From Armatimonadota bacterium (lineage in GTDB: Bacteria; Armatimonadota; UBA5829), in assembly GCA_029907315.1 (NCBI GenBank), contig JARYME010000017.1, positions 1 through 41,701 of the forward strand: a DNA stretch of 41,701 nt. The letters are read 5' to 3'. The position numbers and the translations under genes are program-made. The notes beneath the pieces are model-generated. The model did not search any database and was not told where the DNA came from. It saw only the letters and a program-made list of their open reading frames with translations. This document shows positions 5,649 to 38,789 of the stretch, piece by piece (the first letter of the stretch is position 1; every line of letters starts with the position of its first letter).

Positions 5649-5826
5649 ATTTGCGAAACCTCTTTCCAAGGCAGCGGCCCGTTTCCAATGTAGATTCGGA
5701 CGGGCGTGTACCTACCTTCCAACAAAGAATAGAAAAACACCACAACCGCGAGCAGCGGGGGAAGAGGAGGAAGCAAACGGGGGCAACAGCGGGGTGTAAC
5801 CTGCACAACAGCACTTTATTCAGCTT

Positions 5827-6126
5827 TCATTGCGCATTCCCCGTTGCCATAGCAGCCTCTTCCTCACTGCTGAGATTCAACAATTCAGTTTTCAGGCTCT
5901 CCGGCACCTCGCATCTGAGAGCCTTGCTCAACTTATTCTTCTTAATTGCCTGGACGGTGCATTCCTTCGATCCGCACAAGTATGCGCCGCGTCCCGGAGC
6001 TTTTCCGGTAGGATCAATGCGGACCTGACCGTCTGGGCTCCTTACGATCCTAATCAGCTTTTTCTTCTCGCAGTGCACTCTGCACGAAACACAGCTTCTT
6101 ATAGGGATTTTCTTTTCACCGGCCAC
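5827..6126 (-). CDS. ylxR: YlxR family RNA-binding protein (DUF448)
   Basis: 99 residues. It shows the YlxR signature: PIRSCVSCR at the N-terminus, KKLIRIVRSPDGQVRIDPTGK, and then GRGAYLC with a second Cys pair. YlxR is a small nucleoid- or RNA-associated protein usually encoded between nusA and infB; work in B. subtilis and cyanobacteria links it to transcription regulation and RNase P. The C-terminal 25 residues are Glu/Ser-rich and outside the usual fold. It follows nusA by 35 bp. The next 178 bp (5649-5826), where ylxQ often lies, contain no gene that I can support. Confidence 0.92.
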   Translation of the reverse strand: MAGEKKIPIRSCVSCRVHCEKKKLIRIVRSPDGQVRIDPTGKAPGRGAYLCGSKECTVQAIKKNKLSKALRCEVPESLKTELLNLSSEEEAAMATGNAQ

Positions 6127-6161
6127 TCGACGTCCTCAGCCAAAAACATGTCTCAATGACG

Positions 6162-7295
6162 CTATTGGTCGGATTCCGTCTCTGCGTTCTCATAGTCGTC
6201 TGGATCAGGCGATGCCGAAGCCACAGGTTCTGTTGCCTCAGCTCCGCCTCCGGCCTCAGCCTTTGCCTGCTGAGACTCGCTTCTTATGTCGATACGCCAG
6301 CCCGTCAGTCTGGCAGCCAATCGAACATTCTGACCAGCTTTGCCAATGGCGAGCGAAAGCTGGTTGTCAGGCATTATAACGAGCGCAGTCTTGGTGGATT
6401 CGTCGCAGGTGACGGATAACGCCTTGGCCGGCGATAGAGCCTCGGCGATGAATTTCTCTATGTTTTCGTGCCAGCGAACGATATCTATCTTTTCGCCATA
6501 GAGTTCATTGACCACCGATTGGACTCGTGTTCCTCGGTGCCCGACGCATGCACCCATAGCGTCTACTTTCTCGTCGTGAGAGTATACTGCCACCTTTGTG
6601 CGGGCACCTGGTTCTCTGGCAACCGACTTGATCTCCACAATCCCTTCCGCTATTTCAGGCACCTCAAGTTCGAAAAGTCTGCGTATGAGACTAGGATGCG
6701 TTCTCGATACCATCACCTGAGGCCCTTTGGGCGTCTTGTCGATCTTGTAAAGGTATACCTTCAGTCTGTCGTTGAATCTGTAAGGTTCAGTTGGCACTTG
6801 CTCAGCGGGCGGAAGGATCGCGTCGACCTTCCCAAGGTTCACGATCACATTTCTTTGTTCGCGCCGCTGGACGACGCCGGTTAGAACCTCACCTATGCGT
6901 TCGCTGAACTCCTCGTAGACTCTTTTCTTTTCTTCCTCCCGGATTTGCTGCACCACGACCTGCTTGGCTGTTTGTGCAGCAATGCGGCCGAAATCTTCCG
7001 GAGTAACTTCTATCTCGATAGTATCGCCTATGCGAACGTCAGGGTTGTGTGTTCTGGCTTCCTCCAAGCTGATCTCAGTGTGCGGGTTTTGGACTTTCTC
7101 GACAACTTCTTTCTCACAAAACACGTGAAAGCCGCCCTTGCTCGAGCTTACCCGTACGCGCACATCGCCTGACGCTTGGTACCTTTTCTTGTACGCGGTG
7201 GCCAGCGCGTTTTCTATAGTAGACAGCAAAACCTCGAGAGGTATTTCTTTTTCCTTTTCGATCTGCCTTAGGGCATCCAGGAACTCTGCATTCAT
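6162..7295 (-). CDS. nusA: NusA, transcription termination/antitermination factor
   Basis: 377 residues, close to the Gram-positive-type NusA without C-terminal acidic repeats. The N-terminal RNAP-binding domain (1-125) begins MNAEFLDALRQIEKEKEIP. An S1 domain lies at about 135-200 (GEVLTGVVQRREQRNVIVNLG), followed by two KH domains with VGHRGTRVQSVVNELYGEKIDIV and AIGKAGQNVRLAARLTGWRIDI. The last 35 residues are low-complexity Ala/Glu. NusA modulates pausing, intrinsic termination and antitermination. It is the first gene of the operon because rimP is not upstream. The ATG is preceded by GGGAG about 12 nt away and by a leader hairpin. Confidence 0.96.
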   Translation of the reverse strand: MNAEFLDALRQIEKEKEIPLEVLLSTIENALATAYKKRYQASGDVRVRVSSSKGGFHVFCEKEVVEKVQNPHTEISLEEARTHNPDVRIGDTIEIEVTPEDFGRIAAQTAKQVVVQQIREEEKKRVYEEFSERIGEVLTGVVQRREQRNVIVNLGKVDAILPPAEQVPTEPYRFNDRLKVYLYKIDKTPKGPQVMVSRTHPSLIRRLFELEVPEIAEGIVEIKSVAREPGARTKVAVYSHDEKVDAMGACVGHRGTRVQSVVNELYGEKIDIVRWHENIEKFIAEALSPAKALSVTCDESTKTALVIMPDNQLSLAIGKAGQNVRLAARLTGWRIDIRSESQQAKAEAGGGAEATEPVASASPDPDDYENAETESDQ

Positions 7296-7335
7296 GCCAA
7301 ATAGGTTCTCCCGCCCCTATCGTCGTAAACTGAAA

Positions 7336-7357
7336 AGAGTGGGCTTTGACCCACTCT
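7336..7357 (-). terminator. Leader hairpin of the nusA operon, possible attenuator
   Basis: AGAGTGGG (7336-7343) pairs perfectly with CCCACTCT (7350-7357), an 8-bp stem with a 6-nt loop. Read on the minus strand, the stem is followed by TTTCAGTTT, a short imperfect U-tract. It lies between the predicted transcription start near 7379 and the nusA start codon at 7295, so it sits in the 5' leader. A weak intrinsic terminator here could let NusA, which promotes hairpin-dependent termination, control its own operon. The hairpin is seen; the regulatory role is inference. Confidence 0.5.
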
Positions 7358-7385
7358 CAAAGCAATGCCAACCAGTTTCACATCC

Positions 7386-7414
7386 AGTATACCAAATGGC
7401 GGGCTCGTTTGCAA
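7386..7414 (-). promoter_or_regulatory. Promoter for the nusA-infB-ribF operon
   Basis: Minus-strand -35 TTGCAA (7409-7414) and -10 TATACT (7386-7391) are separated by 17 bp. A TG dinucleotide one base upstream of the -10 gives an extended -10. Transcription would begin near 7379, leaving a leader of about 84 nt. It is back to back with the promoter of the PSP1 gene. Confidence 0.6.
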
Positions 7415-7421
7415 TGGCGGT

Positions 7422-11558: not shown

Positions 11559-11710
11559 TGGCTTTTGTTCTACCAAGAGCTTTGCACATCCTCGACCTGT
11601 CGACTTCCCTGCTAAAGTATCTGTGCTGAGCAGGACTCGGGTTCTCTGCGCACAAATATAACCCTTGTATCACTCATACACAATCATCAGTGGAGAGGAG
11701 ACGGGACCTG

Positions 11711-13771
11711 ATGTCATACGCGTTGGCTGCACTGGCCGTCTGTGGGGTCGTCGCTTTTCCGCAACATCCCCGGTTGCTTCTCAGCAGAGAAGGCGTCGAC
11801 AATCTTATTCGGCGGATATCTGATTGCGACTGGGCAAGAGCTTGTTGGGAGGTGCGCAAGAAACGCGCAGACGGGTTACTTCAAAAGAAGTTCGAGCCTC
11901 CACCCCGCGGTGGCAACTGGTACCATTGGTATGCTTGTCCGAAACACGGCGATAGGTTGATTACTGGGAAGCAGATTGGGCCTTGGGAGTGGGAACACGT
12001 GTGCCCGGTCGACAAGGAGGTTTTCCGCGGGGATCCGTCCGATCCTGCTCGCGACTACGACGGCTGTGCGATTGCTTCGGTGCATTCTGATTGGTCCTAC
12101 GCCGTTCGTGACTTGGGTGTAGCCTATCAGGTAACTGGTGACCGGCGGTATGCCAACAAGGCGCGGGAGATTCTATTGGGCTATGCAGAGGTGTACGAGA
12201 AGTACCCTCTCCATACGGTTAGGAATGAGCCGAAAATCGGCGGTGGCAAAGTCGGTGCGCAGTCGTTGGATGAGTCCGTTTGGCTGATTCCGATTTGTCA
12301 AGGCGCGGATCTGATTTGGGACACGCTTTCCGAAGACGAAAGGCAAACCATAACGCAGAAGCTGCTTCTGCCAGCCGTAAATCAGGTTATCTTGCCTCAT
12401 AAACTCGGCATACACAATATCCAATGTTGGAAGAACAGCGCGGTCGGTTTGGTGGGTTTGCTGCTGGGCGATGAGGAGCTTGTCAAAGCGGCCGTTGATG
12501 ATCCCGAGCGCGGTTATCGCGTGCAGATGGCCAAAGGGGTTACTGCCGACGGTCAATGGTGGGAAGGAACGTGGGGATATCATTTTTATACTATGTGGGC
12601 GCTCTGGCCGCTGGCTGAAGCTGCCAGAAACTGCGGCATCGACTTGTACAATCCGGAGCTTCGACGAATGTTCGACGCGCCTCTCAAGTTTGCAATGCCC
12701 AACTTGCGTCTGCCCGCATTCAGCGACAGCCGCGAGTGTGATTTAAAGGCTTCGAGGGGGATCTATGAGTTGGGTTATGCGCGATATCACGACCCTGCTT
12801 ACCTGCCTCTGCTGCATTCCGGCGATCGCATTAGCGACTATGCATTTTGGTTTGGTGAACCGCAGCTGCCATCAGCATCGCGACAGCCTACGAAGAGTGC
12901 AAACTTCGAAGCATCAGGTTACGCGATATTGACAAGGGGCGACGACGAAGATGCTACCTGGCTGTGTCTCAAGTATGGTCCGTACGGAGGTGGACACGGC
13001 CACCCCGACAAGTTGAGCTTTGTGCTTTATTCGCGCGGAGAGGTTGTAGCTCCCGACCCGGGAACAGCATACTACGGTCTTCCGATTCAGGCAGAGTGGT
13101 TTAGGACCAGTTTGGCACATAACACACTGGTTATAGACGAAACTTCCCAAAACGCAGTCGACGGCAAAATGAAAGCATTCGGCTCGAAAGACGATGCAGA
13201 CTTTGTCGTAGCCGACGCCGGATCCATATACGATGGCGTCAAGTTTGTGCGCACTGCGGTCCTTCTGAATAAGAACTTGCTGGTAGTTGCGGACCAGGTA
13301 TCAGCGGATAGACCAAGGATTATCGATATAGCTTATCATCAGCGGGGCGAGTGGGTGGATTTGCCGCCTGGGCGATCTTGGGAACCACCGGATAAGCCGG
13401 GGTACAAGTGCTTGGAAAACGTGGCTGTGCGCGAGATTGAATCACAAACTGTTTTGGCTACGCGTTTGGGAGGCGCACAGACCTTTAGGGTATGTGTTGA
13501 CGCACCGCGTTCGTCACAGCTCATAACTGCCATGGGTCGTATTTGTGATAGCCAGGAGCGTGTGCCTTGCGCGATTGTTCGGACAATTGGTAAAGAGAGC
13601 ACGGTCATTTGGGCGATTGCTTTGGATGGAAAACTGCCTCGTATCGAGCGCCTTTCTCAAGAGCCGTTAGCCAAATCTGAATTGCCTCCGCTTGCGTTTC
13701 GCGTAAAGGCCGCAGACGGCAGCATGTGGCGGATAATCGCCGGTTCTACCAATCCTGTGCGGCGGTGGTGA
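11711..13771 (+). CDS. Heparinase II/III family polysaccharide lyase, exported
   Basis: 686 residues from the ATG at 11711, which has GAGGAG 10 nt upstream. A GTG at 11690 would give a better signal peptide (MERRRDLMSYALAALAVCG) but has no Shine-Dalgarno. The alpha/alpha-toroid domain runs to about 390, with HNIQCWKNSAVG near 233 and WWEGTWGYHFYTMWAL near 283. These resemble the Asn/His and Tyr segments of alginate-lyase/heparinase folds. The beta-sandwich starts near 400 with GPYGGGHGHPDKLSF, where the His is a family hallmark. It probably cleaves a uronic-acid polysaccharide by beta-elimination outside the cytoplasm; the substrate cannot be told from sequence. It stands alone after thiC. 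Confidence 0.82.
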   Translation: MSYALAALAVCGVVAFPQHPRLLLSREGVDNLIRRISDCDWARACWEVRKKRADGLLQKKFEPPPRGGNWYHWYACPKHGDRLITGKQIGPWEWEHVCPVDKEVFRGDPSDPARDYDGCAIASVHSDWSYAVRDLGVAYQVTGDRRYANKAREILLGYAEVYEKYPLHTVRNEPKIGGGKVGAQSLDESVWLIPICQGADLIWDTLSEDERQTITQKLLLPAVNQVILPHKLGIHNIQCWKNSAVGLVGLLLGDEELVKAAVDDPERGYRVQMAKGVTADGQWWEGTWGYHFYTMWALWPLAEAARNCGIDLYNPELRRMFDAPLKFAMPNLRLPAFSDSRECDLKASRGIYELGYARYHDPAYLPLLHSGDRISDYAFWFGEPQLPSASRQPTKSANFEASGYAILTRGDDEDATWLCLKYGPYGGGHGHPDKLSFVLYSRGEVVAPDPGTAYYGLPIQAEWFRTSLAHNTLVIDETSQNAVDGKMKAFGSKDDADFVVADAGSIYDGVKFVRTAVLLNKNLLVVADQVSADRPRIIDIAYHQRGEWVDLPPGRSWEPPDKPGYKCLENVAVREIESQTVLATRLGGAQTFRVCVDAPRSSQLITAMGRICDSQERVPCAIVRTIGKESTVIWAIALDGKLPRIERLSQEPLAKSELPPLAFRVKAADGSMWRIIAGSTNPVRRW

Positions 13772-14117: not shown

Positions 14118-15374
14118 ATGACACCGGTTAGATCACGCTTCCTTGTACTGGCTTTCGTCTTCCTACTTGCTGCTTCCTCGTGCTGGGCTCAAGTTAAGGT
14201 GATTACTCCCAGCAATATGCAGGACATGATATTGGCGACAGTGACGAGCGCGAACGCTTGGTTTGCCGATCCTGCACCGCCAGGTGGCTTGGGTGGTTCG
14301 GGTGCCTTGTTTATGTCGCTGGGCGGGGATGGCAGTTCCAGCACAGGTAATTACTGCGGTCAGGTATGGCTTGGGACCAACGCGTTTGCCGGAGTCAAAC
14401 TAACTGACCTGACTATGCTTTCATATCAAACGTGGTGTTCCAACTCAGGGATTTGGAACGCTGCGCAAGGCACTTGGTCGCCGCCAAGGCAGCCTTGCAC
14501 GCTTAGGCTGGTCATAAACACCAATGATCCTCTGGATCCGACGCCTATTCGAATGCTGATGTTTCGTCCCATTAAGCTCACAGGCGCCAGCGAACCCGGA
14601 TACGGCTTAGCTCCGTACCCTGAGGATTTCAATTACCTCAACTTGTGGAAGACGCAGGACTGTCTGTATGGAGGTGACGGGTGCTGGGCGGAGTTCTACT
14701 ATGGTCAGACCCCGTGCCTTTGGACAGGAACTTGGGGCGAGCTGCTTGCGAAATACCCGAACGCTACCATCACCATCCCCGAACTGCAGGTTGGCGGCGA
14801 GTGGCCTGAGGCATATCCCGTCAATACTCCCAATGGGTGCGGTCTGAGCCTGGAATGGGGTGCCGAATCTCGGGGCGGAGGCGACTGGCCTACCCAGCCG
14901 TGGAAGAATTGGTGGAGGGAAGCACTCAACGCTGTCGGATTCGTTGACTACCTACAGGTCGGAGTTGGTGCAGACTATGTGGTATACGATTTCGAAGCAG
15001 ACAGCAAGAATCCCCCTGTCGCGATGAACGGGAAAGCCCTCCAAGAAGGAGCATCTCGCACAGGTGCCCAGAATTGGCCTTTCGTAGTTTACGGACGGTG
15101 CGTCGAGAGAACGCTGCCGGTGCCTTCGTACCCACCGTGGCGAGACGATGCTCACTTCTACCTGGAGGACGGCAGCGGTCAGCAGATTGAAGTGGTTTGT
15201 CTGCAGCACGAGTATGCGGGTGTTACGCTCGGCAAGTACTACCGCGTGCAGGGCCGCGCTTTGCCCAGGTATTCCATAATGCCCAGTGGACAGCCGACCC
15301 CCATGCGGATTCACACAGACGCTTGGTCATATCCGCCGCTTATTGTGGAGCTATCCGAAGGCGAACCGCAGTAG
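14118..15374 (+). CDS. Secreted protein of unknown function with C-terminal OB-like domain
   Basis: 418 residues with a clear signal peptide (basic start, FLVLAFVFLLAASSCWA, cleavage before QVKV). The body (about 25-295) is rich in Trp, Cys, Gly and Pro and looks like an extracellular beta-sandwich; I do not recognise it. The C-terminal segment (about 325-400) contains FVVYGRCVERT, FYLEDGSGQQIEVVC and GKYYRVQGRA. Its strand and glycine pattern resembles the OB-like repeats at the C-termini of the proteins at 30669 and 32723. The gene is monocistronic, with its own promoter, long leader and terminator. A role in binding extracellular polymer is possible but unproven. Confidence 0.7.
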   Translation: MTPVRSRFLVLAFVFLLAASSCWAQVKVITPSNMQDMILATVTSANAWFADPAPPGGLGGSGALFMSLGGDGSSSTGNYCGQVWLGTNAFAGVKLTDLTMLSYQTWCSNSGIWNAAQGTWSPPRQPCTLRLVINTNDPLDPTPIRMLMFRPIKLTGASEPGYGLAPYPEDFNYLNLWKTQDCLYGGDGCWAEFYYGQTPCLWTGTWGELLAKYPNATITIPELQVGGEWPEAYPVNTPNGCGLSLEWGAESRGGGDWPTQPWKNWWREALNAVGFVDYLQVGVGADYVVYDFEADSKNPPVAMNGKALQEGASRTGAQNWPFVVYGRCVERTLPVPSYPPWRDDAHFYLEDGSGQQIEVVCLQHEYAGVTLGKYYRVQGRALPRYSIMPSGQPTPMRIHTDAWSYPPLIVELSEGEPQ

Positions 15375-21812: not shown

Positions 21813-23246
21813 ATGAGAATTACCCCTAGTCCGGGAAACAGCATATCGGTTCTTTTGCGTCACCCCAATACCGCTCAGGCGTTTGCTGAGGTGGTTCGTG
21901 TCATCGCTGAATCTGGTGGGGGTATAGGGCCGATAGAGGTTACAGATTGCACCACCAGGTCAATAACGAGGCGAATAGCTATAGACACCACTGGCGGGGA
22001 CCATCCGGATCGTATAGTAGCTGCGCTGCGGGGTTTGGCGGGGATAGAGGTGCTGGATGTCTACGACCGCACGTTCAAGCTGCATGAGGGTGGGAAACTG
22101 GAGGTGGTTTCCAAGGTTGCGCTGCGCGATTCGGCAGACCTTTCGATGGCGTATACGCCTGGGGTCGCTAGAGTGTGCCAGGCTATCCATTCACGGCCGT
22201 CGGCTGCGCGCGACTACACCATAAAGCGCAGTACGGTTGCTGTATTGACGGATGGGTCGGCAGTTCTTGGACTAGGCGATATCGGCGCTGTTGCCGCGCT
22301 TCCGGTAATGGAGGGTAAGGCTGTCCTGTTCAAAGAGTTCGGGAAAGTTGACGCTTTCCCAGTGTGTGTTGACACGAAGGACCCTGAGGAGCTGCTTGCC
22401 TGTGCGCGTGCCGTCGCTGCAACGTTCGGTGGGATAAACCTGGAAGACATAGCGGCCCCGAAATGTTTTGAAATTGAGCGTCGGTTAACGGATGCCGTAG
22501 ACATCCCTGTATTCCACGATGATCAGCACGGCACGGCCGTAGTTGTCGGTGCGGCGTTCATCAATGCTGTCAAACTAACCGGAAAAGAGCCTTCGAAGAT
22601 GAGAGCGGTTATTTCGGGTGCCGGAGCTGCTGGCGTGGCTTGCACGCGGGCTCTTTATGATCTTGGCATTGGCGATGTTATCGTGTGTGACAGACAGGGT
22701 TCCATCTACCGCGGACGCCAAGGAATGAATCCTGCGAAAGAATGGCTTGCGCAGGTCTCTAATGCGCAAAACTTCAAGGGCACTCTTCAGGAAGCTCTCG
22801 TAGGTGCCGACTTGTTTTTGGGCGTTTCCGGTCCGAATTTGCTAACCGGAGACGACATCCGGAAAATGGCACAAGCTCCGATAGTTTTTGCACTGTCCAA
22901 TCCAGTTCCAGAGGTTGCCCCAGAGGCAGCAGCCGAATACGCTGCGGTCGTAGCCACTGGAAGGTCGGACTATCCAAATCAGATTAATAACGTTTTGTGT
23001 TTCCCCGGATTGTTCCGCGGACTGCTGGAGTGTGGCGCGAAGCGAGTGACGCGAGAGATGTTGACGGCTGCAGCAAGGGCAATTGCGTCGGTTATCTCGG
23101 AGGACGAACTTCGCCCGGATTTTATAATCCCCAGTGTTTTCGACAAGAGAGTCAGCGAGTCCGTGGCCGGCGCAGTGGTCCGAGTGGCTTCCGATCCGTC
23201 TGCTGCGCAGACGCCGATCTATTTTGACTTTGCTGCTTCTCGGTAA
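21813..23246 (+). CDS. NAD(P)-dependent malic enzyme with N-terminal ACT-like domain
   Basis: 477 residues from the ATG at 21813 (GGAGG 6 nt upstream; a GTG three bases earlier is less well spaced). Residues 1-85 look like an ACT domain (SISVLLRHPNTAQAFAEVVRVIAESGG). The malic domain has SMAYTPGVARVC, GLGDIGAVAALPVMEGKAVLFKEFG and FHDDQHGTA, covering catalytic Tyr, Lys and metal-binding Asp positions. The NAD domain has ISGAGAAGVA. It decarboxylates malate to pyruvate. The ACT-fused form suggests allosteric control. The last 28 bp overlap the convergent PEP-CTERM-type gene. It is the last gene of the run from 16651. Confidence 0.92.
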   Translation: MRITPSPGNSISVLLRHPNTAQAFAEVVRVIAESGGGIGPIEVTDCTTRSITRRIAIDTTGGDHPDRIVAALRGLAGIEVLDVYDRTFKLHEGGKLEVVSKVALRDSADLSMAYTPGVARVCQAIHSRPSAARDYTIKRSTVAVLTDGSAVLGLGDIGAVAALPVMEGKAVLFKEFGKVDAFPVCVDTKDPEELLACARAVAATFGGINLEDIAAPKCFEIERRLTDAVDIPVFHDDQHGTAVVVGAAFINAVKLTGKEPSKMRAVISGAGAAGVACTRALYDLGIGDVIVCDRQGSIYRGRQGMNPAKEWLAQVSNAQNFKGTLQEALVGADLFLGVSGPNLLTGDDIRKMAQAPIVFALSNPVPEVAPEAAAEYAAVVATGRSDYPNQINNVLCFPGLFRGLLECGAKRVTREMLTAAARAIASVISEDELRPDFIIPSVFDKRVSESVAGAVVRVASDPSAAQTPIYFDFAASR

Positions 23247-24040
23247 CGCATCTTCAGTGCCACGGCGACTGTTCCTGCCAAGAGCGAGAAAGCAGTTTGG
23301 GGCTCCGGCACAATCGGCGGCTGCTGTTCGTGGTCCGAGTGGTTATAGATAAGGAGTAGCGGCAGCAGTCCTCGTGCGAGTTGGAGGAATGGTACAATCT
23401 GTGTGCTTTCCGTAATCAGCGGCTCGGAGGCTATCGGCGTCAGACTTACTTGCGGCTCGACAAGCCTCAGAAGCACCTCTTCCTCCGACGGCTGTGCCAC
23501 TGCTACGGTGAACACTTCGGCTGGTTCTGTTTCAGGAGGAGTCTCGTGTGCGCCTTCGGGTATGGTTACCGGCTTTTCTTCTCTTGCCTCGGCTGATATC
23601 ACCTGCGTAAAGCCCTTGACCTTGCTTTGAATTGCCGGGAGTGTTTCCGTTATAGGGTTTCCACAGCCGATGTCCAGTACTGGCTCGCCGGATCGATTTG
23701 CAAATACTTTGTGGTTGGCAGAAAGCCAGCAGTTTCTGCAAAGTATAGCACCGGTCTTGGATACGAAGTGCATCCTGACCTTTACAGGCTTGGCAAGCTT
23801 GATTACTTGCAAGTTCTCGCGGAAATACTGAATCACGTGTTCCTGAGACACCTTGAAAAACTGGGAATAGCGCCTGCCGACTACCTTTTCTTGCGAAACC
23901 TGCTTGACCAATTCCTCAACAGTGTCGGCAGCGTATTTCACGAATGAACCAGGCCGCGGCGGTTTGCGCGCGCTTGCCGACGAGGACGCTGCAACTGCCA
24001 GTGTCAACACCATTGTCAGCCAAATCTTTGAGGTAAGCAT
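23219..24040 (-). CDS. Exported protein with PEP-CTERM-type C-terminus
   Basis: 273 residues. The signal peptide is MLTSKIWLTMVLTLAVAASSSASA. A conserved-looking module (about 30-135) contains VRMHFVSKTGAILCRNC and LDIGCGNPITETLP; I have no named domain for it. A Pro/Glu-rich linker (about 150-235) follows. The end reads VPEPQTAFSLLAGTVAVALKMRYR: a PEP motif, a hydrophobic helix and basic residues, the layout of PEP-CTERM sorting signals recognised by exosortase. The basic cluster is weaker than usual and about ten residues follow the helix. It could be cell-surface sorted. The gene ends inside the 3' end of the malic enzyme gene (28 bp overlap). AGGA lies 9 nt before the ATG. Confidence 0.75.
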   Translation of the reverse strand: MLTSKIWLTMVLTLAVAASSSASARKPPRPGSFVKYAADTVEELVKQVSQEKVVGRRYSQFFKVSQEHVIQYFRENLQVIKLAKPVKVRMHFVSKTGAILCRNCWLSANHKVFANRSGEPVLDIGCGNPITETLPAIQSKVKGFTQVISAEAREEKPVTIPEGAHETPPETEPAEVFTVAVAQPSEEEVLLRLVEPQVSLTPIASEPLITESTQIVPFLQLARGLLPLLLIYNHSDHEQQPPIVPEPQTAFSLLAGTVAVALKMRYREAAKSK

Positions 24041-30668: not shown

Positions 30669-32675
30669 ATGATGAATACGGCAGGTTTTCTCAGAATGAT
30701 AACGGTTTGCGGTGTCCTCGCTTGTGCGGCGGTAACACAGTCCGCCGCCTCCGATTTTGTACGTATCCAGGGCGACCAGTTCGTCTTCCGCGGTCAGGTA
30801 GTCAAGTTCAAGGGAACCAACTACTATCCTCGAGACCATATGTGGGCGGATATGTGGAACAGTTGGGACTGGCAGGAGATGACGCGCGAAGTTGCGATGA
30901 TTCGGGACCTGGGACTCAACTGCGTCCGCATACTGGTTCCTTATAGTCACGGCGGCTGGGGCGGGGCAAACCCGCCTGCGGACCGGCTTCAGAAGCTGGA
31001 AGATCTGGTAAACCTTCTTGGAGACAACGGTATTCGAAGCTGCATAACGCTTTTCGATTGGGAGACCAGTTTTCCCGCTGCAGGCACAACGAAGGAACGG
31101 GATCACCTAAGCTACTTGTCGGCCATAGTCAACCGGCTGAAGAACAACGAGTATGTGTTCATGTGGGACGTTAAGAATGAGCCAGACCACCCTGCGAATA
31201 TCGGCGGTTACGATAACTGGGATTCAAACCCTGCGGCGCGGGACAAGATAATCAGTTGGTTGAACCGCATGTGCAACGCTGTCAGAGCCATAGATTCAAA
31301 CCACCCTGTTTCTGTTGGGATCCGATGGTGGGAAAACGTACAGGATGTGATCGGCTTCGTAGACATCGCTGTATTTCACTCCTACTGGCCTAACGTTGTC
31401 CAGCAAATCTCTGATATCAGGTCTTACATGGGGGCTAATCCTAAGCCCATACTTTGCCAAGAGTTCGGTTGGCCTACTAATCCTACACCTTGTAATCGCG
31501 ACGGTCAGCTCATATGGAGCTACACTGAGGCCGAGCAGCTGAATGTATATACAAACCACCTTACAGCGTTTGCATCTCAGGGAATTGCCGGGTGTCTACA
31601 ATGGATGACTTTCGACGCGCGTATGTACACGCCTGATCCGAATGTAAGCTTCGAAAACTATTTCGGACTGTGGCGCTACGACTACACTCTCAAACCTGCT
31701 GGTGCTTACTACCGCGATAATTTCCCGGTCTCACTATTCCCGTCGCGTTCAGAACCTCCCGGTCCGGTTACACAGTTCGTAGCCCAGCCAACCGACTCGG
31801 GTGTTAGGCTGTCGTGGGTCAATCCTTCGGACGCGAACTTTGCCGGCACAGTAATCCGTGTCAGCACGTCAGGCTATCCTGCCGACGCTGAGTCCGGGGA
31901 GTTGGTCTGCGATCGGCCCGCCCAGCCGGGTTCTCAAGATTCTTTTGTTCACTTGGGTGTTACTCCCTGCACGACCTACTTCTATGCCGCCTTCGCGTAC
32001 AACCAAAACAGACGCTTTTCGCAGCCTGCCAAGACATCTGCTACACCTGGCCAGGGCTGCCTTGCCGCGATCAAGCAACTTCCAGATAACACTTGGGTTG
32101 CTTACAGCGGCGCCATAGTGACGGCAGTGTTTACCGCCGACGGATGTGTCTATGTTCAGACGCCTGACAGGTGCTGCGGAATACGGGTTGTGGTGCCAAG
32201 CTCCGGTTTGGCTCCAGGTGACATAGTTGAACTGACTGGCTATATTGGCACGCGCTGGCTCAGTGGTCAACGTTCGGAAAGACATATCACCGCGCAGACT
32301 ATCAACAAGATCGGTTGTGCTTCGCCTCCTGAGCCGCTGTGTATGAGTGGCAAGTCAGTCGGCGGTGGTCCTGTAGGACTGTGGGTGCCGGGAGTTGTTG
32401 ATGGGATCGGACCCAACAACGTGGGCTTACTCGTCAAGGTCTGCGGCCGTGTCACGTGCCGAGTAGGGAATTATTTCTGGGTGGACGACGGCAGCGGCGT
32501 GACCGATGTTCTCGGTCGCACCGGCGTGATGGTGCGGTGTCTTTTCGACCCCCAGGTATCGGTAGGAGACGTCGTGAGTTGTGTCGGCATCGTTGAGGGG
32601 AGCATTCCGACTGGGTGGACCTCTAACCGTCGGTGCATTCACCCAAGATCGATCGAAGACATCACAAAGTATTGA
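30669..32675 (+). CDS. Exported GH5-like glycoside hydrolase with Fn3-like and tandem OB-like domains
   Basis: 668 residues. A signal peptide ends near TQSAAS. The TIM-barrel (about 30-355) has FKGTNYYPRDHMW, LGLNCVRILVPY, MWDVKNEPD near 168 (Glu in the acid/base position of clan GH-A) and ILCQEFGWPT near 263 (Glu in the nucleophile position). An Fn3-like module (about 363-463) has VRLSWVNPSDANFAGTVIR and DSFVHLGVTP. Two OB-like segments (about 465-555 and 560-668) follow, with YVQTPDRCCGIRV, PGDIVELTGYIG, then YFWVDDGSG and VGDVVSCVGIVEGS. It probably hydrolyses a beta-linked glycan; the substrate is unknown. The gene at 32723 shares the whole C-terminal half. Confidence 0.85.
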   Translation: MMNTAGFLRMITVCGVLACAAVTQSAASDFVRIQGDQFVFRGQVVKFKGTNYYPRDHMWADMWNSWDWQEMTREVAMIRDLGLNCVRILVPYSHGGWGGANPPADRLQKLEDLVNLLGDNGIRSCITLFDWETSFPAAGTTKERDHLSYLSAIVNRLKNNEYVFMWDVKNEPDHPANIGGYDNWDSNPAARDKIISWLNRMCNAVRAIDSNHPVSVGIRWWENVQDVIGFVDIAVFHSYWPNVVQQISDIRSYMGANPKPILCQEFGWPTNPTPCNRDGQLIWSYTEAEQLNVYTNHLTAFASQGIAGCLQWMTFDARMYTPDPNVSFENYFGLWRYDYTLKPAGAYYRDNFPVSLFPSRSEPPGPVTQFVAQPTDSGVRLSWVNPSDANFAGTVIRVSTSGYPADAESGELVCDRPAQPGSQDSFVHLGVTPCTTYFYAAFAYNQNRRFSQPAKTSATPGQGCLAAIKQLPDNTWVAYSGAIVTAVFTADGCVYVQTPDRCCGIRVVVPSSGLAPGDIVELTGYIGTRWLSGQRSERHITAQTINKIGCASPPEPLCMSGKSVGGGPVGLWVPGVVDGIGPNNVGLLVKVCGRVTCRVGNYFWVDDGSGVTDVLGRTGVMVRCLFDPQVSVGDVVSCVGIVEGSIPTGWTSNRRCIHPRSIEDITKY

Positions 32676-32722
32676 CAGCGCTGCAGAGTTGAGGTATTTT
32701 GCGATCAGGTGAAACGTTTTAT

Positions 32723-35062
32723 ATGCTATCGGGGTGGTGTAGCTTGACTATGCGCGGGGTGCCTGGAAGATTCTTTTTTCTCGTTTTTGCTACGGGATTT
32801 CTCTTTAGCGCCTCATTGACATGCTGGGCGGGTTGGTCACCTGCTCGACTATTGAACGACGTGTCGGAGACTGCCACCAAGGGCGGTGAAATTTGGCCCG
32901 CGATCGACGGCGGATTTCACGCGGTTTACGCCAACACAAAACCCAGCTGGCAGGTTGTTTATAAAAGATACAAAGACGGCATTCTTTCACCGCGGCAGAT
33001 CATTCGTAATGGTTTCGTGCCCAATCCCAACTTGTGTCAGGCCGGAAACGGCGACGTTCACTTGGTATGGGAGGATTGGGACGATGGTCTTCAAATCGGT
33101 TGGGCGGTCTCAAAGAATCGCGGCACAAGCTTCTTGCCTTGGCAGGAGATAACGAATACGGGCGACACCAAGTGGCCCTTGATCGTACCTTACGGTCCGC
33201 CCGACAGTCCGACAGTGATCATGAGCTTCTGGCAAGCCAAGGAAAAGAATCTTTACTGGCGGGTATATGACGGCACTTCTTGGGGTCCGCTAATGAATAT
33301 GAACCAGAATGCGGACAATGAGTACGAAGTGTTCGGAATGTGCAGGAGCCTTCAGGATGGTTCGGTCTACCGCAGCTACGGCACCAAAATCGGTGGCGTT
33401 CTAAGTGTTTGCTATAGGCGCTTCAACGGCAGCTATTGGGAACCACAGGTTGTTGTTGCCAGTCCAGGATTCTTCTGTCGCCACGATATCGCAGTGAATA
33501 CTACGGGCCATGTGCTTGTGATGTGGGAGCAGGACGAACGCATATGGACAAGGATCTACACCCCAGGCGTCGGCTGGGGTCCCATTGAGCGCATAACAAA
33601 CGAATCCTCGGGTTTCGGTGGTGTTACTGCTGTGCCTGGCACTGCGGATTTCTACCTGGTTTACCGAAGAGGAGACCCAGGCGCATCCCAGATTTATGGC
33701 CGTCGTTGGCAAGGTGGAGTATGGCAATCGGAGGAACTTGTGTCAGTGGGGATGCCCGCTGGCTTTGTGGTTGATGCAGATGTGTGCGCGGGTCCAGATG
33801 GGACCCTTTACGCATCTTGGGAGTACTGGGGAAGCGGCGAACCGCAGCAGTGGTTCTCGGTCCGCGAAGGAAACCCGCTTCCGGACGCCGTTGTTCGGGG
33901 TTACGTTAGAGACCAGTACGGGCAAGGTATTCCGAATGCGTCTGTCGGTTCGGGAGCTTACGTAACCGTTTCCACAGCCGGTGGATATTATTCCCTAGGC
34001 GTTCCGAGTGGAGTGAGAAGCTTTACGGCATCGAAGACAGGATATGTGGGGCAAACGCTTGAGAACGTTGTTGTGCCGGCTGGAGGCACAATCAACCTGG
34101 ACTTCACGATTACAGCCATACCCGTCTCCGCGCCGTCGGGTTTCGCGGCGATGCCGTCAAACAAACTGGTGCGTCTTACCTGGACAAATCCCTCAGAATC
34201 CTGGTTCCAAGGAACTATTGTAAGGTGCAAGACAGACGGGTACCCCACAGGTCCTACAGACGGAGTTCTGGTATGCGATAAGCAAAATGTGCCGGAGTCG
34301 TCTGACAGCTTTGTTCACACTGGGCTGACAAATGGCGTAACCTACTACTATGCCGCGTTCGCTTACGACTGGGACAGGCATTACTCAGCCCCAGCTTTGG
34401 CTTACGCAGTGCCGGTAAATGCCACGTGCTCGTTCGTCAAAAGTCTCCCGGACGGTTGGCTTGTGGATATGTATTCTCGCGTGGTGAGCGCCGACTTTGC
34501 TTCAACAGATGGGTGCATCTACGTGCAGGATCCAGACGGCACCTCCGGCTTACGCGTTGCAACTACGCAAACCGGTTTTTCGCCGGGGGACGTTGTAAAT
34601 GTGTCCGGCAAGATATCGAGCCGGTTTTTCAGCGGGTATCGTTCGGAGCGTGTGATTACAGAGGCGACGATTACAAGAATTCGTTCTGGTTCCCCGCCAA
34701 AGCCTGTGGCAATGAAGTGCAATAGCGTTGGCGGTGGTCCGGCCGGGCCCATGGTGCCGGGAGTTAGGAACGGAATCGGTTTGAACAATATAGGGCTTCT
34801 GGTGCGTATTGCCGGCAAAGTCACTTACAAGTCCGGTAGCTACATCTACGTGGACGACGGCAGCAGCGTGGAGAACCTGTATGGGTTGTACACACCTGTT
34901 CGCGGGGTCATGGTCAAATGCCCGGGTACTCCTTCGGTAAATGTAGGCGACATAGTAGGCGTGACAGGTGTAGTAGAAGGAAGCATCCCGAGCAGCCCGG
35001 ACTGGACAACCAATCGGGCGTTCATTCAGATGCGCGACTGGAGCGATCTGGTGCGCTTCTAA
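32723..35062 (+). CDS. Exported beta-propeller-like protein with carboxypeptidase-regulatory-like, Fn3-like and tandem OB-like domains
   Basis: 779 residues from the ATG at 32723 (AGGTGA 10 nt upstream); an ATG at 32750 would also fit the signal peptide (RFFFLVFATGFLFSASLTCWA). Residues 40-385 have repeated WSP/W..P and VHLVWEDW-type strands like a BNR-type propeller. Residues 390-462 (VVRGYVRDQYGQGIPNASV) are a carboxypeptidase-regulatory-like domain. Fn3-like (466-562) and two OB-like segments (570-779) match the C-terminus of the preceding GH5-like protein closely, for example SVGGGPAGPMVPGVRNGIG. No catalytic residues are evident; it may bind glycan at the surface. It is 47 bp behind the GH5-like gene, probably the same transcript. 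Confidence 0.8.
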   Translation: MLSGWCSLTMRGVPGRFFFLVFATGFLFSASLTCWAGWSPARLLNDVSETATKGGEIWPAIDGGFHAVYANTKPSWQVVYKRYKDGILSPRQIIRNGFVPNPNLCQAGNGDVHLVWEDWDDGLQIGWAVSKNRGTSFLPWQEITNTGDTKWPLIVPYGPPDSPTVIMSFWQAKEKNLYWRVYDGTSWGPLMNMNQNADNEYEVFGMCRSLQDGSVYRSYGTKIGGVLSVCYRRFNGSYWEPQVVVASPGFFCRHDIAVNTTGHVLVMWEQDERIWTRIYTPGVGWGPIERITNESSGFGGVTAVPGTADFYLVYRRGDPGASQIYGRRWQGGVWQSEELVSVGMPAGFVVDADVCAGPDGTLYASWEYWGSGEPQQWFSVREGNPLPDAVVRGYVRDQYGQGIPNASVGSGAYVTVSTAGGYYSLGVPSGVRSFTASKTGYVGQTLENVVVPAGGTINLDFTITAIPVSAPSGFAAMPSNKLVRLTWTNPSESWFQGTIVRCKTDGYPTGPTDGVLVCDKQNVPESSDSFVHTGLTNGVTYYYAAFAYDWDRHYSAPALAYAVPVNATCSFVKSLPDGWLVDMYSRVVSADFASTDGCIYVQDPDGTSGLRVATTQTGFSPGDVVNVSGKISSRFFSGYRSERVITEATITRIRSGSPPKPVAMKCNSVGGGPAGPMVPGVRNGIGLNNIGLLVRIAGKVTYKSGSYIYVDDGSSVENLYGLYTPVRGVMVKCPGTPSVNVGDIVGVTGVVEGSIPSSPDWTTNRAFIQMRDWSDLVRF

Positions 35063-35098: not shown

Positions 35099-38000
35099 TC
35101 AATTGAGCACGGGAACAATCCTTACAGCGTCAGCTATGAAGTACAGCCCGTCTCTTTCCGTAACGTTCCTTGCTTGAACTCTTAGCTCGCCCTTACTCAG
35201 GGAAAACGTTCCCAGCCTTACCCATTCGGCCATAGTTTGTTGGTTGAGAACAAACGTACAGCCTGATTGACTCATGCGTCGTTGCACGATTGGGCCGCTC
35301 GTGGCAGACAGTTCCACAGGCTCGGCATTGATCGTATATTCAACTCGGTCGGACGGTGTTATAGTGGTCACGGGCAGAAATACCTCGACTGCGTATACTC
35401 CTGCTTTCGGGACCTGCAACACGTACTCACCGCATTCGTGTCTGCCAGGGTCGGTTTCGTGCTGTGTGTAGCTGCCTGACCACGCCGCAGGATCAGGTAC
35501 GACGGTCCACTCGTTTGTCTTTGTAACCTTCACAAACCCGTCCAGGTCGTCGGCGACGCAAGCTGCCGGTGCGTTAGGAAACGGATGCACGAAGCCCTTG
35601 ATCACAACGGGTTTTACCAAAAACTTACCGTTGACCACAAACCTCTTTGCGCCCCCGGTCAGAATGCGAATGCTGGGATGGGGTTCGGCGCATTCGACAT
35701 ACAAAGTGCTGCCAACATAAGCGACTGAGAGGCTGGAAATACGCTGCTGCGCCGCTTCCGCTAGCAGTTTGCCGTTGAAAATGAGTTTGCTGCCGTCTGC
35801 CCATCCGAAGCTGGTGATTCTTCCCTTCGTATCGAGTCTTACAACCGCGAATGCGGCATCAGAGATATGGCTGCCGCTGCGGTAGCTCGCGGGTTCTCTT
35901 GGTGAGCCGAAGACAGCCCAGTCCGTGCCTCGAGGCGTACTTATGCGCAAACTGTAGAAAAGGTCCGAAAGCGAGCGGTTGTCAGGTGGTATGCGCTGCC
36001 AGACGATCTTTGGCGGCTTGTTGCCCAAATACGGGAAAAGCAGCGTTTGAAATCTCGGATTTGCCGTCTTGCGAGTGAGCCTGAAGATCGAAGTCTTCGG
36101 GTATTTCGACGCGGCTGTGATTCCCGGTGCTTTTCGGACTTCGAGGTCGGTAAAATTCTGGTTGAGGATAAGCAGGTTGCCGCCTTCGTCAAATGTGGTT
36201 GCTATGACACCGGTTCGAGGGTCGAATCTGGCGTTCGGATCGGTCAGGTTCCAAACCTGAGTCCAGGCGGTATTCCTAGTTGTCTCTGCTGAGTCGTCAA
36301 CCAAGATGTAGTCGGGTTTGACAAATGCTACGCGCCTTCGGACACAGTTTACGTTTCCGAGATAGTTGTAACCGTTGTGTCGGCCATCAAACCAGTCGAA
36401 TGTGCTGTTTGACACCCAACGGTTGGCTCCTGGTTCACGCTTGACGTCGCGGCCCTCGCAGACCATTATTGAATGTATGTTGCTAGTCCAGTAGACGTCG
36501 ATTCCTTCCGGCGGTTTGTAGTCGTATTGGCCGGGATCTATAACGAGAGTTCTGCCATATGCGTATAGATTCAGACATGTGAGGTCCCAGTGGCCGTGGC
36601 TTCCGAACCATCCGCCATTGTGAATGAACACGTGCCGAGCATCCCTGTAATCCGAGCCTTTTTCCCCAAAATCGGACCGCATAATGAAGTAGCCTGCTTC
36701 CGGGTATACTTTACTGGGCCAGTTGGGCGGCGTGCCTTCTTCTCCTTGCGAGGCGATCCACACAATATCAGGCCGAGTCAGCAACTTGCCTGCTTCATAC
36801 AGCTCGCCCGTTGTGTAGGCCTTTGCTATCTCGTTGGGATACGCGTCTTCAATTAACCACCTGTTGATAAAAGCTGTATCCTCGGGAGTTGTGCGAGGTG
36901 TCTTTAGAGCTCGGATGGTCCTTCTGCGCAGATGCACGTTCTTCCAAGCGGCCTGATCGAAGAGGGTATCGCATTTCAAGAGTTTGTTGAACTCAGCGAC
37001 CAGGGCGTCAAGAACAGATTCTGGAACGCCTCTTCCAGGAGTGAATTGCTCAACCAGCTCGCGGGTTTGCGGGCTGAACATAGACTTGATTCGTGTTGAC
37101 ACAGGATCCGACGCGTCCCGCAGCCGAGTGAGCAAGCCAGCCGGATCTCGCAAGTCCGTTTTTGAGAAATTGGGGTTCTCTGTGTAATTTTCGTACCAGG
37201 AATCTCCGCACATTACCACGTAGTTATTGGGTTGCAGTGTGTGCGCCATATGGTCATACATACCGTTCAGTGTTCGAACAAGATCATTGTAGGTATCTTG
37301 CTCGAGCTCGATGGTGCCTTCAACGTGATACTTCAAGAGTCCAAGGAGCCTTCTGGCAACCATCGCATGGTATTTGATGGAACCTTCTACACAGGTGCCT
37401 TCGCCTCTGACACCCTCTTTACTCACCTGTATCAGCGCGGTTGCTCCCCATGTCTTACAAGGTCCACTGATCTTCCATTCTGGAAATGCGATTCCGAAAT
37501 CCAGAGCTGATTTGGCAGCAGTTGCCAGCCAGTTGCCTCCAGACTTGCACTGGTATACCCAGCGTGCATTGTCCTCAAAGAATGAAAGCAGTATCAGCTT
37601 TTCGTCGTTTGTCCAGCCGGAGAAATTGTACAACCGCGCGTATACTAGGTCGCCGTGTCCAGGCATACGCGCGGCGGCCGTGCGGTCGTTCCAAAGTTCG
37701 TGATAGTATGGAAACTCTGGGGAGTTATATATTAACTTGGGGTTGGGGTTATCCAAGATCCATTGGATGCGAATATCTATTGCTGCTCGAGCATACTCAG
37801 GCTTTCCGGTCGCCGTATATGCTGCTGCCAGCACTCGGTCGAAGTCCCACAGGTCGGGGCTGGGCTTGATGCCGTGGCTTGGCATTTTTGCGTCGGGAAT
37901 CTCCGGTGCCCACCAACTTTCCTTGCGCCAGGGAATTGGTTTTCCGGTGTCGGCGTGAAGTACCATCCCTTTGAGTATTAGATCCGCCGTCGATGTGTCT

Positions 38001-38764
38001 GCGTTCGGATCTGGCTGTACCGTCATCACACTGCGCCAAGACTCCCACAAATCCATTCGATTATGGAAGTGCTTTACAGTCTCAGCTATCGCTTGCTCCC
38101 AGTCACCTTTTTCAACCGCGCTCTTTACTGCTGCCAGTTCAGGTCTGGAAAGATCCAATCGTTCGGTGAAGAACTTGCGGAGATTGGCCTCTCGGTCTGC
38201 AACGAGCTTGATGTGACACTCAAAAGAAAGATCGGCTACGCTTGTGTTCGGCACAGCCGAGCCGCCGGGAAATGCGTCGTTGACAAATGCTTGGAAAGCG
38301 ACTTTGCCATCACCGCCGCTCGATGTCAGTTCGAAGTAGAAATTTCGTCTTCCTCCGGTCGGCACTCGGAGTTGGAAGAAGAGAACTCGGTCTCCGGATT
38401 CTCTGAAGTGGGAGCCGTCACCGATAACATATTGTTGTACTCGGCTGGTTGCACCGCTTATGGTGTACTCTCTTAGCTTGGTCTTTTTGTCGGGGCCACT
38501 GTAAAGGCAGAGCGTGACGCTTTCGCTCAGGTCCCAAGAATCGTACACCGGGCGTACGCCTATCCTGTATATTTCGCCGACGTTTGCGTCTACTGTGAAT
38601 GTCTGGCCTATCGTCTTTCCGGGACCGGTAGAAACCGAAGTGTTGCCCGGTCCGGTGCATGGGCCTGGGCGCACAGGGTTTAGGTAGTCGTCGAAAAGGG
38701 GTCCGGCGTTACCAGAGGCGCCGATAAGTAGAGTGAAAAGAAGTGTGCAGACAAACGTTTTCAT
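35099..38764 (-). CDS. Large exported heparinase II/III-type lyase with C-terminal golvesin-like domain
   Basis: 1221 residues from the ATG at 38764 (GGAG 5 nt upstream), opening with the signal MKTFVCTLLFTLLIGASGNA. Residues 25-190 look like a beta-sandwich (IGQTFTVDANVGEIYRIGVRP). An alpha/alpha toroid follows (about 220-690), then a heparinase II/III beta-domain with NGGWFGSHGHWDLTCLNLYAYG near 715 and NIHSIMVCEGRD. The last 140 residues (WSGSYTQHETDPG, VYAVEVFLP, YFIADAVRIVP) match the golvesin C-terminal-like domain. It probably cleaves an acidic polysaccharide outside the cytoplasm; whether all catalytic residues are present cannot be judged by eye. It is downstream of a prepilin-like gene on the same strand and converges on the 779-residue gene. 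Confidence 0.8.
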   Translation of the reverse strand: MKTFVCTLLFTLLIGASGNAGPLFDDYLNPVRPGPCTGPGNTSVSTGPGKTIGQTFTVDANVGEIYRIGVRPVYDSWDLSESVTLCLYSGPDKKTKLREYTISGATSRVQQYVIGDGSHFRESGDRVLFFQLRVPTGGRRNFYFELTSSGGDGKVAFQAFVNDAFPGGSAVPNTSVADLSFECHIKLVADREANLRKFFTERLDLSRPELAAVKSAVEKGDWEQAIAETVKHFHNRMDLWESWRSVMTVQPDPNADTSTADLILKGMVLHADTGKPIPWRKESWWAPEIPDAKMPSHGIKPSPDLWDFDRVLAAAYTATGKPEYARAAIDIRIQWILDNPNPKLIYNSPEFPYYHELWNDRTAAARMPGHGDLVYARLYNFSGWTNDEKLILLSFFEDNARWVYQCKSGGNWLATAAKSALDFGIAFPEWKISGPCKTWGATALIQVSKEGVRGEGTCVEGSIKYHAMVARRLLGLLKYHVEGTIELEQDTYNDLVRTLNGMYDHMAHTLQPNNYVVMCGDSWYENYTENPNFSKTDLRDPAGLLTRLRDASDPVSTRIKSMFSPQTRELVEQFTPGRGVPESVLDALVAEFNKLLKCDTLFDQAAWKNVHLRRRTIRALKTPRTTPEDTAFINRWLIEDAYPNEIAKAYTTGELYEAGKLLTRPDIVWIASQGEEGTPPNWPSKVYPEAGYFIMRSDFGEKGSDYRDARHVFIHNGGWFGSHGHWDLTCLNLYAYGRTLVIDPGQYDYKPPEGIDVYWTSNIHSIMVCEGRDVKREPGANRWVSNSTFDWFDGRHNGYNYLGNVNCVRRRVAFVKPDYILVDDSAETTRNTAWTQVWNLTDPNARFDPRTGVIATTFDEGGNLLILNQNFTDLEVRKAPGITAASKYPKTSIFRLTRKTANPRFQTLLFPYLGNKPPKIVWQRIPPDNRSLSDLFYSLRISTPRGTDWAVFGSPREPASYRSGSHISDAAFAVVRLDTKGRITSFGWADGSKLIFNGKLLAEAAQQRISSLSVAYVGSTLYVECAEPHPSIRILTGGAKRFVVNGKFLVKPVVIKGFVHPFPNAPAACVADDLDGFVKVTKTNEWTVVPDPAAWSGSYTQHETDPGRHECGEYVLQVPKAGVYAVEVFLPVTTITPSDRVEYTINAEPVELSATSGPIVQRRMSQSGCTFVLNQQTMAEWVRLGTFSLSKGELRVQARNVTERDGLYFIADAVRIVPVLN

Positions 38765-38789
38765 AATTGCTCCGCAGACACACATAGTT

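Follow-up and report, generated by a model that had tools for sequence, protein, structure and literature searches.

Why do two adjacent genes, whose products have unrelated heads, end in the same tail, and what might that tail do for the proteins that carry it? The question is raised by a window of 41,701 nucleotides (the whole stretch of DNA analysed here, contig JARYME010000017.1 of the Armatimonadota bacterium assembly GCA_029907315.1), in which a Pfam scan assigns a GH5 domain to the head of P0001 and gives no match for the head of its neighbour P0002, the name "propeller-like" for the latter being the call of the original prediction. The proteins, their domains and a pair of genes from another locus are listed in Table 1. 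The window also encodes two heparinase II/III-like polysaccharide lyases (11690-13771 on the forward strand and 35099-38785 on the reverse strand), the second of which has a Golvesin C-terminal domain.

Table 1. Positions of the proteins and domains discussed in the text, numbered within the window except for the last two lines, which are numbered within locus L070.
Feature	Position	Strand	Description and basis
P0001	30669..32675	+	668 aa; signal-like N-terminus, GH5 catalytic domain, FN3-like domain, double-OB tail
GH5 (PF00150) domain, P0001 residues 72-290	30882..31538	+	Pfam E 2e-13
FN3-like domain, P0001 residues 371-452	31779..32024	+	weak PF16656 match, E 0.089; homologue in P0002
OB1 of the P0001 tail, model residues 6-80	32094..32318	+	modelled strands; 9sf8 profile match, E 5e-5; fold comparison
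Conserved inter-barrel linker of P0001 (SVGGGP...VPGV...GIGPNN)	32319..32429	+	tail alignment and model
OB2 of the P0001 tail, model residues 118-198, up to the stop codon	32430..32672	+	model; RPA14 match, E 0.0022; fold comparison
P0002	32699..35062	+	787 aa; signal-like N-terminus, propeller-like head, CarboxypepD_reg, FN3-like domain, double-OB tail
CarboxypepD_reg (PF13620), P0002 residues 399-471	33893..34111	+	E 4.8e-10
Double-OB tail of P0002	34445..35059	+	51% identical to the P0001 tail
P0003	14118..15374	+	418 aa; exported-looking; family ends in either one OB or PEP-CTERM
Terminal single OB of P0003, about residues 296-418	15003..15371	+	tail profile, predicted structure, fold alignment
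L070 natural pair, PEP-CTERM version	5183-6007		PEP-CTERM ending
L070 natural pair, OB version	5973-7421		OB-OB ending

A tail of two predicted OB folds

BLASTP aligns residues 343-668 of P0001 with residues 460-787 of P0002 (46% identity over 333 columns, E 2e-88). The original prediction had the last 200 or so residues of the two proteins as homologous, which is confirmed for the tails alone (51% identical), and the homology extends further, over about 330 residues that comprise the FN3-like domain and the 190-residue tail. The motifs it had quoted are present in both proteins with a single-letter difference, GIRV in P0001 being GLRV in P0002. An alignment of tails from the same genome (A1, 35 of 39 full-length tails, with split, long or very short ones excluded) gives as the conserved core of the wider family 'Y.E..DR..GIRV', 'ER', 'GG', 'G.NN.GLLVR..GRV', 'DDGS' and 'VTG', while VEGSIP is confined to a few copies, and identity among the copies falls to about 30%. 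The final 180 or so bases of the P0002 tail, which lie within OB2, are 92% identical (166 of 180 columns) to another tail of the same genome (G000), on contig C162 (L051:7-621), whereas the part before them is 60% identical (251 of 420); this step in identity points to gene conversion or recombination, by which tail copies would exchange sequence.

What fold does the tail adopt? With alignment A1 as input, AlphaFold2 models the P0001 tail as two barrels (mean pLDDT 95.6, pTM 0.90), with strands at residues 6-18, 23-27, 34-38, 48-61 and 64-80 in OB1 and at 118-129, 132-136, 150-153, 165-175 and 183-188 in OB2. Both halves of the predicted model superpose on OB domains of RPA, SSB and AspRS; VIA-align places OB1 on 3e0e (Z 10.3, 72 residues, 1.9 A) and OB2 on 4gop_A (Z 10.5, 81 residues, 1.9 A). 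The pair of OB folds that had been suspected from the sequence pattern is thus borne out by the predicted structure and by the fold comparison of each half. With Foldseek, the sole match below 0.001 is the Deinococcus radiodurans single-strand binding protein (1se8, E 7.5e-5), whose superposition is poor across the whole tail length (rmsd 15.6), and the next neighbours are RMI2, HIN, RPA14 and OB domains of aminoacyl-tRNA synthetases.

Relatives are also found by sequence profile. Positions 6-86 of OB1 match 9sf8 and 9sf9, EEP-domain (nuclease-type) proteins (E 5e-5). The region of 9sf8 that is matched, residues 20-118, is close to the start of its 562-residue chain. For OB2, the profile match is archaeal RPA14 (E 0.0022). 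The profiles suggest that OB1, and OB1 only, is related to the OB of YhcR/ExeM-type extracellular nucleases, the ExeM type of 9sf8 being read from its name.

A related single copy had been proposed at the end of P0003, and several lines of evidence agree with it. The tail profile is weak on P0003 by sequence alone (E 0.003) and reaches 1e-6 to 8e-5 on the four best members of its family, in a small set of ORFs; the predicted C-terminus (residues 296-415) aligns with 8aaj_C (Z 11.7, 86 residues, rmsd 1.8) in a model of moderate confidence (mean pLDDT 68.8). This putative terminal OB is related to OB2.

Is the tail a known family? PF01336, the OB-fold nucleic acid binding domain, matches three of 35 tails at E <= 0.01, the best at 6.6e-4, which its E-value places under the curated cut-off of 27 bits; tails scored singly reach 17 bits or less. 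No Pfam match seen on the tails reaches its cut-off, no NCBIfam family matches the 35 tails, and no carbohydrate-binding Pfam family was found on them (ten tails listed singly, 35 in aggregate). Neither a type IX domain nor a carbohydrate-binding module is among the structural neighbours listed for the two models, a listing that does not exclude either. Neither of the outcomes that would speak against the original prediction here, a known carbohydrate-binding module or a fold other than OB, was encountered: the predicted fold is OB, and no carbohydrate-binding family matched. Its view of the domain as undescribed holds for Pfam and NCBIfam, yet OB1 is a recognisable relative of the OB of EEP proteins.

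Copy number, position and heads

The tail profile finds 72 matches at E <= 1e-5 in the genome that contains the window, some proteins containing more than one matched stretch, and 50 distinct ORFs were fetched; a search of the same genome with a single tail gives 48 matches at E <= 1. A reading in which the tail belongs to two proteins only is ruled out by these counts. In one region of G000 (L024, contig C96, 20000-39900), a stretch of about 18 kb contains six tail-bearing genes and, interspersed with them, two PEP-CTERM genes.

Across the class (genomes G000 to G027), 24 of 28 genomes have 22 to 102 tail matches each, the counts being lower bounds in three genomes in which part of the candidates was scored, and the tail is absent from the remaining four: G006, G010 and G012, which belong to one genus, and G024. 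In a scan of the phylum that scored about 13 candidates per genome, at least 39 of 251 genomes have a tail match at E <= 1e-6, namely the 24 of the class and a further 15 in which one or two matches were scored; the ten of these 15 that were fully rescored stayed at one or two. Outside the class, the tail is rare in the phylum. Named relatives, read from the labels of 80 of 189 confirmed stretches in a scan limited to carriers of one short motif, come from metagenome-assembled genomes labelled Armatimonadetes or Armatimonadota (including UBA5829), from one Abditibacteriota and from unassigned 'bacterium' bins, and a tblastn search of plasmid records with one tail as query found no relative.

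Where in the chain does the tail sit? The 3' end is intact in 135 of the 142 tail proteins from the fetched loci, and the number of residues that follow the tail is at most 8 in 97 of these, 9-30 in 26, 31-100 in one and more than 100 in 11, so that the chain ends no more than 30 residues past the tail in 123 and runs longer in 12. The nine carriers of OB1 only again have it at most 8 residues from the chain end. The tail of L031, in contrast, is near the N-terminus (residues 82-249 of 1132).

A strong hydrophobic N-terminal stretch is present in 37 of the 38 carriers of the same genome that have an intact 5' end, by a crude test that used no signal-peptide predictor and whose threshold was set after the fact; in a looser set, a hydrophobic N-terminus is found in 37 of 47 tail carriers as against 44 of 108 tail-less ORFs. 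Judged by N-terminal hydrophobicity, the carriers look exported, and a wide occurrence of the tail on cytoplasmic proteins, which would have counted against the original prediction, is not what we find.

The heads of these proteins are diverse. Their Pfam matches, aggregated over the 43 of 50 tail ORFs in alignment A3 (fragments excluded; top 25 of 69 families) and read singly for 32 of the 43 (P0001, P0002 and 30 others), include papain with a lectin-like domain, two subtilases, GH5, a GH20 domain, kelch, RCC1, FG-GAP repeats, NAGPA, an EEP-like domain, DUF362, beta-helix and F5/8C; eight of the 30 have no Pfam match at E <= 0.001. The EEP-nuclease-like head belongs to L044 (2082-3941, G000 contig C5; 24.2 bits against a cut-off of 24.5) and is the sole nuclease-like head among the 32, with none in P0001 or P0002. 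As far as these matches indicate, no one head function accounts for the tail.

Exchange with PEP-CTERM

The genome that contains the window has 24 PEP-CTERM matches at E <= 0.1, of which 19 are above the cut-off. Within the window, a 273-residue exported-looking protein (23219-24040, reverse strand) has a weak PEP-CTERM end (VPEPQTAFSLLAGTVAVALKMRYREAAKSK) below the cut-off. Additional PEP-CTERM proteins were collected from the class genomes, their heads being picked by sequence pattern, and L110 was left out because of a false motif. Of the 116 non-redundant PEP-CTERM heads, 16 have a counterpart among the heads of tail proteins, and in 14 the match covers at least half their length; grouped by shared partners, the 14 fall into about nine head families, several of the matches being weak (26-31% identity). 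At L070, on a single MAG contig (isolate SJ273), two adjoining genes encode proteins that are 68% identical over 242 residues, through 'LILEIDV', after which one continues into PEP-CTERM and the other into OB-OB (Table 1). A relative in G019 is 53% identical to the PEP-CTERM version and 48% to the OB version, for which reason the OB version looks derived at this locus. A PEP-CTERM protein on contig C97 and a tail protein on contig C157 of the window's own genome share 44% identity over 327 residues, and the P0003 family has a boundary, 'YDFE', that is followed by either module: the members in G019 and G025 end in PEP-CTERM, and P0003 and others have the OB there. A pattern search for a PEP motif, helix and basic end found none on 172 tail proteins, the hit on L110 being a PEP inside OB2.

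The control was a comparison of these heads with 497 further ORFs, each 200 aa or longer, in the same loci; 10 of the heads found a match there, 8 of them over half the head's length. Inspection of the partners found by these 8 showed P0003-family OB proteins that score below the profile cut-off, one PEP protein in a truncated copy, ORFs that run off a locus end and one PEP-CTERM-like protein overlooked by the pattern. Among these inspected partners, drawn like all compared ORFs from around tail and PEP-CTERM genes, where heads with a plain C-terminus are maybe under-sampled, there is no verified complete protein that ends in neither module. Adjacency of the two kinds of gene was examined as well: five of the 24 PEP-CTERM matches lie within 1.5 kb of one of the 50 tail ORFs (1.6 expected, P 0.02) and six within 3 kb (P 0.03), a weak enrichment of adjacency.

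Do the two modules depend on each other? Tail and exosortase are present or absent together in 28 of 28 class genomes, and PEP-CTERM is likewise gone from the same four, save a weak match (E 0.087) in G006. However, CarboxypepD_reg drops in these same four genomes, to one copy in each as compared with 10 to 67 in the other 24, and the co-loss of tail and exosortase is therefore not specific; since three of the four also belong to one genus, we rejected the pattern as evidence of a specific link between tail and exosortase. Secretin is retained in 27 of 28 class genomes, including three of the four without the tail. The simplest reading of these gene counts is that G006, G010, G012 and G024 have lost a large secretome.

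Outside the class, proteins with OB copies may end in other ways. In L140, read by eye, the OB is followed by a hydrophobic segment and then by basic residues at the end, and in L142 and L149 a dockerin-like end appears to come after the OB copies. Beyond the class, the anchor thus need not be the OB pair, and that the tail excludes other C-terminal modules can be said of the class but not of the whole phylum. A script for membrane anchors behind the tail, which required at least 15 residues after the tail and applied a strict hydrophobicity threshold, flagged none, L140 included. In L140, L141, L147 and L148, an OB pair or a single OB1-like match stands behind what we take to be a GHL10-like glycoside hydrolase and a CarboxypepD_reg-like domain, and this combination is perhaps the older arrangement. 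In the three out-of-class genomes that were searched there is also a hint that dockerin may take the tail's place: G029 and G030 have 16 and 33 dockerin matches with no or one (OB1-only) tail match, as against 0 to 4 dockerin matches in genomes of the class and none at E <= 0.001 in the window's own genome.

A probable retention module, its alternatives and known systems

What, then, does the tail do? On balance, we consider it probable that the tail is a folded C-terminal module for localisation or retention, an alternative to exosortase sorting. We favour retention because the tail takes the place of a sorting signal, lies at the end of the chain in nine proteins out of ten and follows heads that are otherwise unrelated. 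Carriers would be exported via an N-terminal signal peptide, as their sequences suggest, and the two OB barrels would then keep them on the cell surface or within the extracellular matrix through a shared binding partner, for which an envelope or matrix polymer is the likeliest candidate. The same tail could in this way serve a large number of enzymes and binding proteins that have nothing to do with each other, at the position where their relatives have the PEP-CTERM/exosortase signal. The original prediction of a common anchoring or ligand-binding job becomes likelier through the exchange with PEP-CTERM, while retention and the binding of a partner are what we infer for it. Against retention count the 12 of 135 carriers with more than 30 residues past the tail and the tail of L031 near the N-terminus, and an exchange of C-terminal modules is equally expected from ordinary domain shuffling. 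The charge of the tails is variable (median pI 5.28, 5-95% range 4.3-9.4, a quarter above 6.8; 115 tails) and is no pointer to one fixed ligand; nor does charge support nucleic-acid binding, the tails being mostly acidic. A wider claim, that the class uses the double OB as a general sorting or retention tag for tens of exported proteins per genome, operating alongside exosortase/PEP-CTERM, interchangeable with it and with a receptor of its own, and thus possesses a new localisation system, we put forward tentatively, as possible rather than probable.

Released enzymes might instead be kept at their substrate, the tail binding extracellular nucleic acid or oligosaccharide without any attachment to the cell. 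We rank this explanation second, as the relatives of the tail bind nucleic acid (9sf8/9sf9 for OB1, E 5e-5; RPA14 for OB2, E 0.0022) and as ExeM, according to passages of PMC6085458, needs its two-OB region for activity; the EEP-like head of L044, at 24.2 bits against 24.5, would fit as well. That head is nevertheless alone of its kind among the 32 carriers read singly, the tails are mostly acidic, although a quarter are not, and the exchange with PEP-CTERM suggests a localisation slot; we consider substrate targeting rather unlikely. The tail could also mark its carriers for secretion by a dedicated machine in the outer membrane, which would recognise it and perhaps cleave it off. The position, the copy number, the folded beta domain and the lack of double carriers with PEP-CTERM are in line with type IX C-terminal domains as portrayed in sections of PMC4804311, but the predicted fold is OB and not Ig-like, and tails also occur inside the chain or close to its N-terminus; a secretion signal seems improbable to us. 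SprA_N was matched in 0 of 31 genomes and also in 0 of 14 control genomes, and hence carries no weight either way. The explanation to which we give least credence is that of a promiscuous accessory domain of the ordinary extracellular kind, comparable to FN3 or Ig repeats, that has spread by duplication and has no common function. The class-wide expansion, the unrelated heads, the apparent gene conversion between copies and their divergence to about 30% identity would all suit such a domain. However, FN3 and Ig domains are found anywhere along a chain, whereas the tail is at most 30 residues from the chain end in 123 of 135 proteins, and among the 497 ORFs none of the partners inspected, those of 8 PEP-CTERM heads, is a verified complete protein with neither module at its end.

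A domain carried dozens of times per genome by a bacterial class is nameless in Pfam and NCBIfam. If it is a localisation tag, it shows which proteins these uncultured bacteria place on their surface or in their matrix, and the natural matched pairs, with the same head and either a PEP-CTERM or an OB tail, allow two fates to be compared. If true, a fold of nucleic-acid type would have been recruited into an exported C-terminal module.

OB folds, two-OB regions of secreted nucleases and C-terminal sorting modules are already known; a double OB in the PEP-CTERM slot, in tens of copies per genome and class-wide, was not found in Pfam, NCBIfam or the open-access literature, and in that literature we found nothing that links PEP-CTERM with an OB fold or Armatimonadota with exosortase. 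Dockerin, like the tail, is a C-terminal module on exported proteins, and its domain is distinct. RPA14 and members of PF01336 resemble OB2 in fold and match it weakly in sequence, with scores below the Pfam cut-off; these OB domains belong to DNA- or tRNA-binding proteins of the cell interior. Closer in setting is ExeM, an extracellular nuclease with two putative OB folds: passages of PMC6085458 report that deletion of the region abolishes activity, for which its authors suggest substrate interaction while also writing of function and/or stability. The ExeM/9sf8 proteins are exported, as the carriers appear to be, and OB1 appears to be a sequence relative of the 9sf8 OB (E 5e-5), but the OB of 9sf8 is near the N-terminus, whereas the OB pair described here is mostly terminal, on proteins other than nucleases. 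The cargo of type IX secretion has a C-terminal domain, which sections of PMC4804311 describe as an Ig-like beta-sandwich of Bacteroidetes that is cleaved by PorU; it is similarly a folded beta domain that terminates many secreted proteins, and differs from the tail with its two predicted OB barrels. PEP-CTERM consists of a short motif, a helix and a basic cluster, and its processing by EpsH has been proposed (Haft et al, 2006; PMC1569441, in part). The tail is instead a folded domain of 190 residues without motif, helix or basic end. Nonetheless, PEP-CTERM as presented in parts of the same source is likewise C-terminal, present in many copies per genome and carried by diverse signal-peptide proteins of outer-membrane bacteria, and in the genomes studied here it co-occurs with the tail, on homologous heads.
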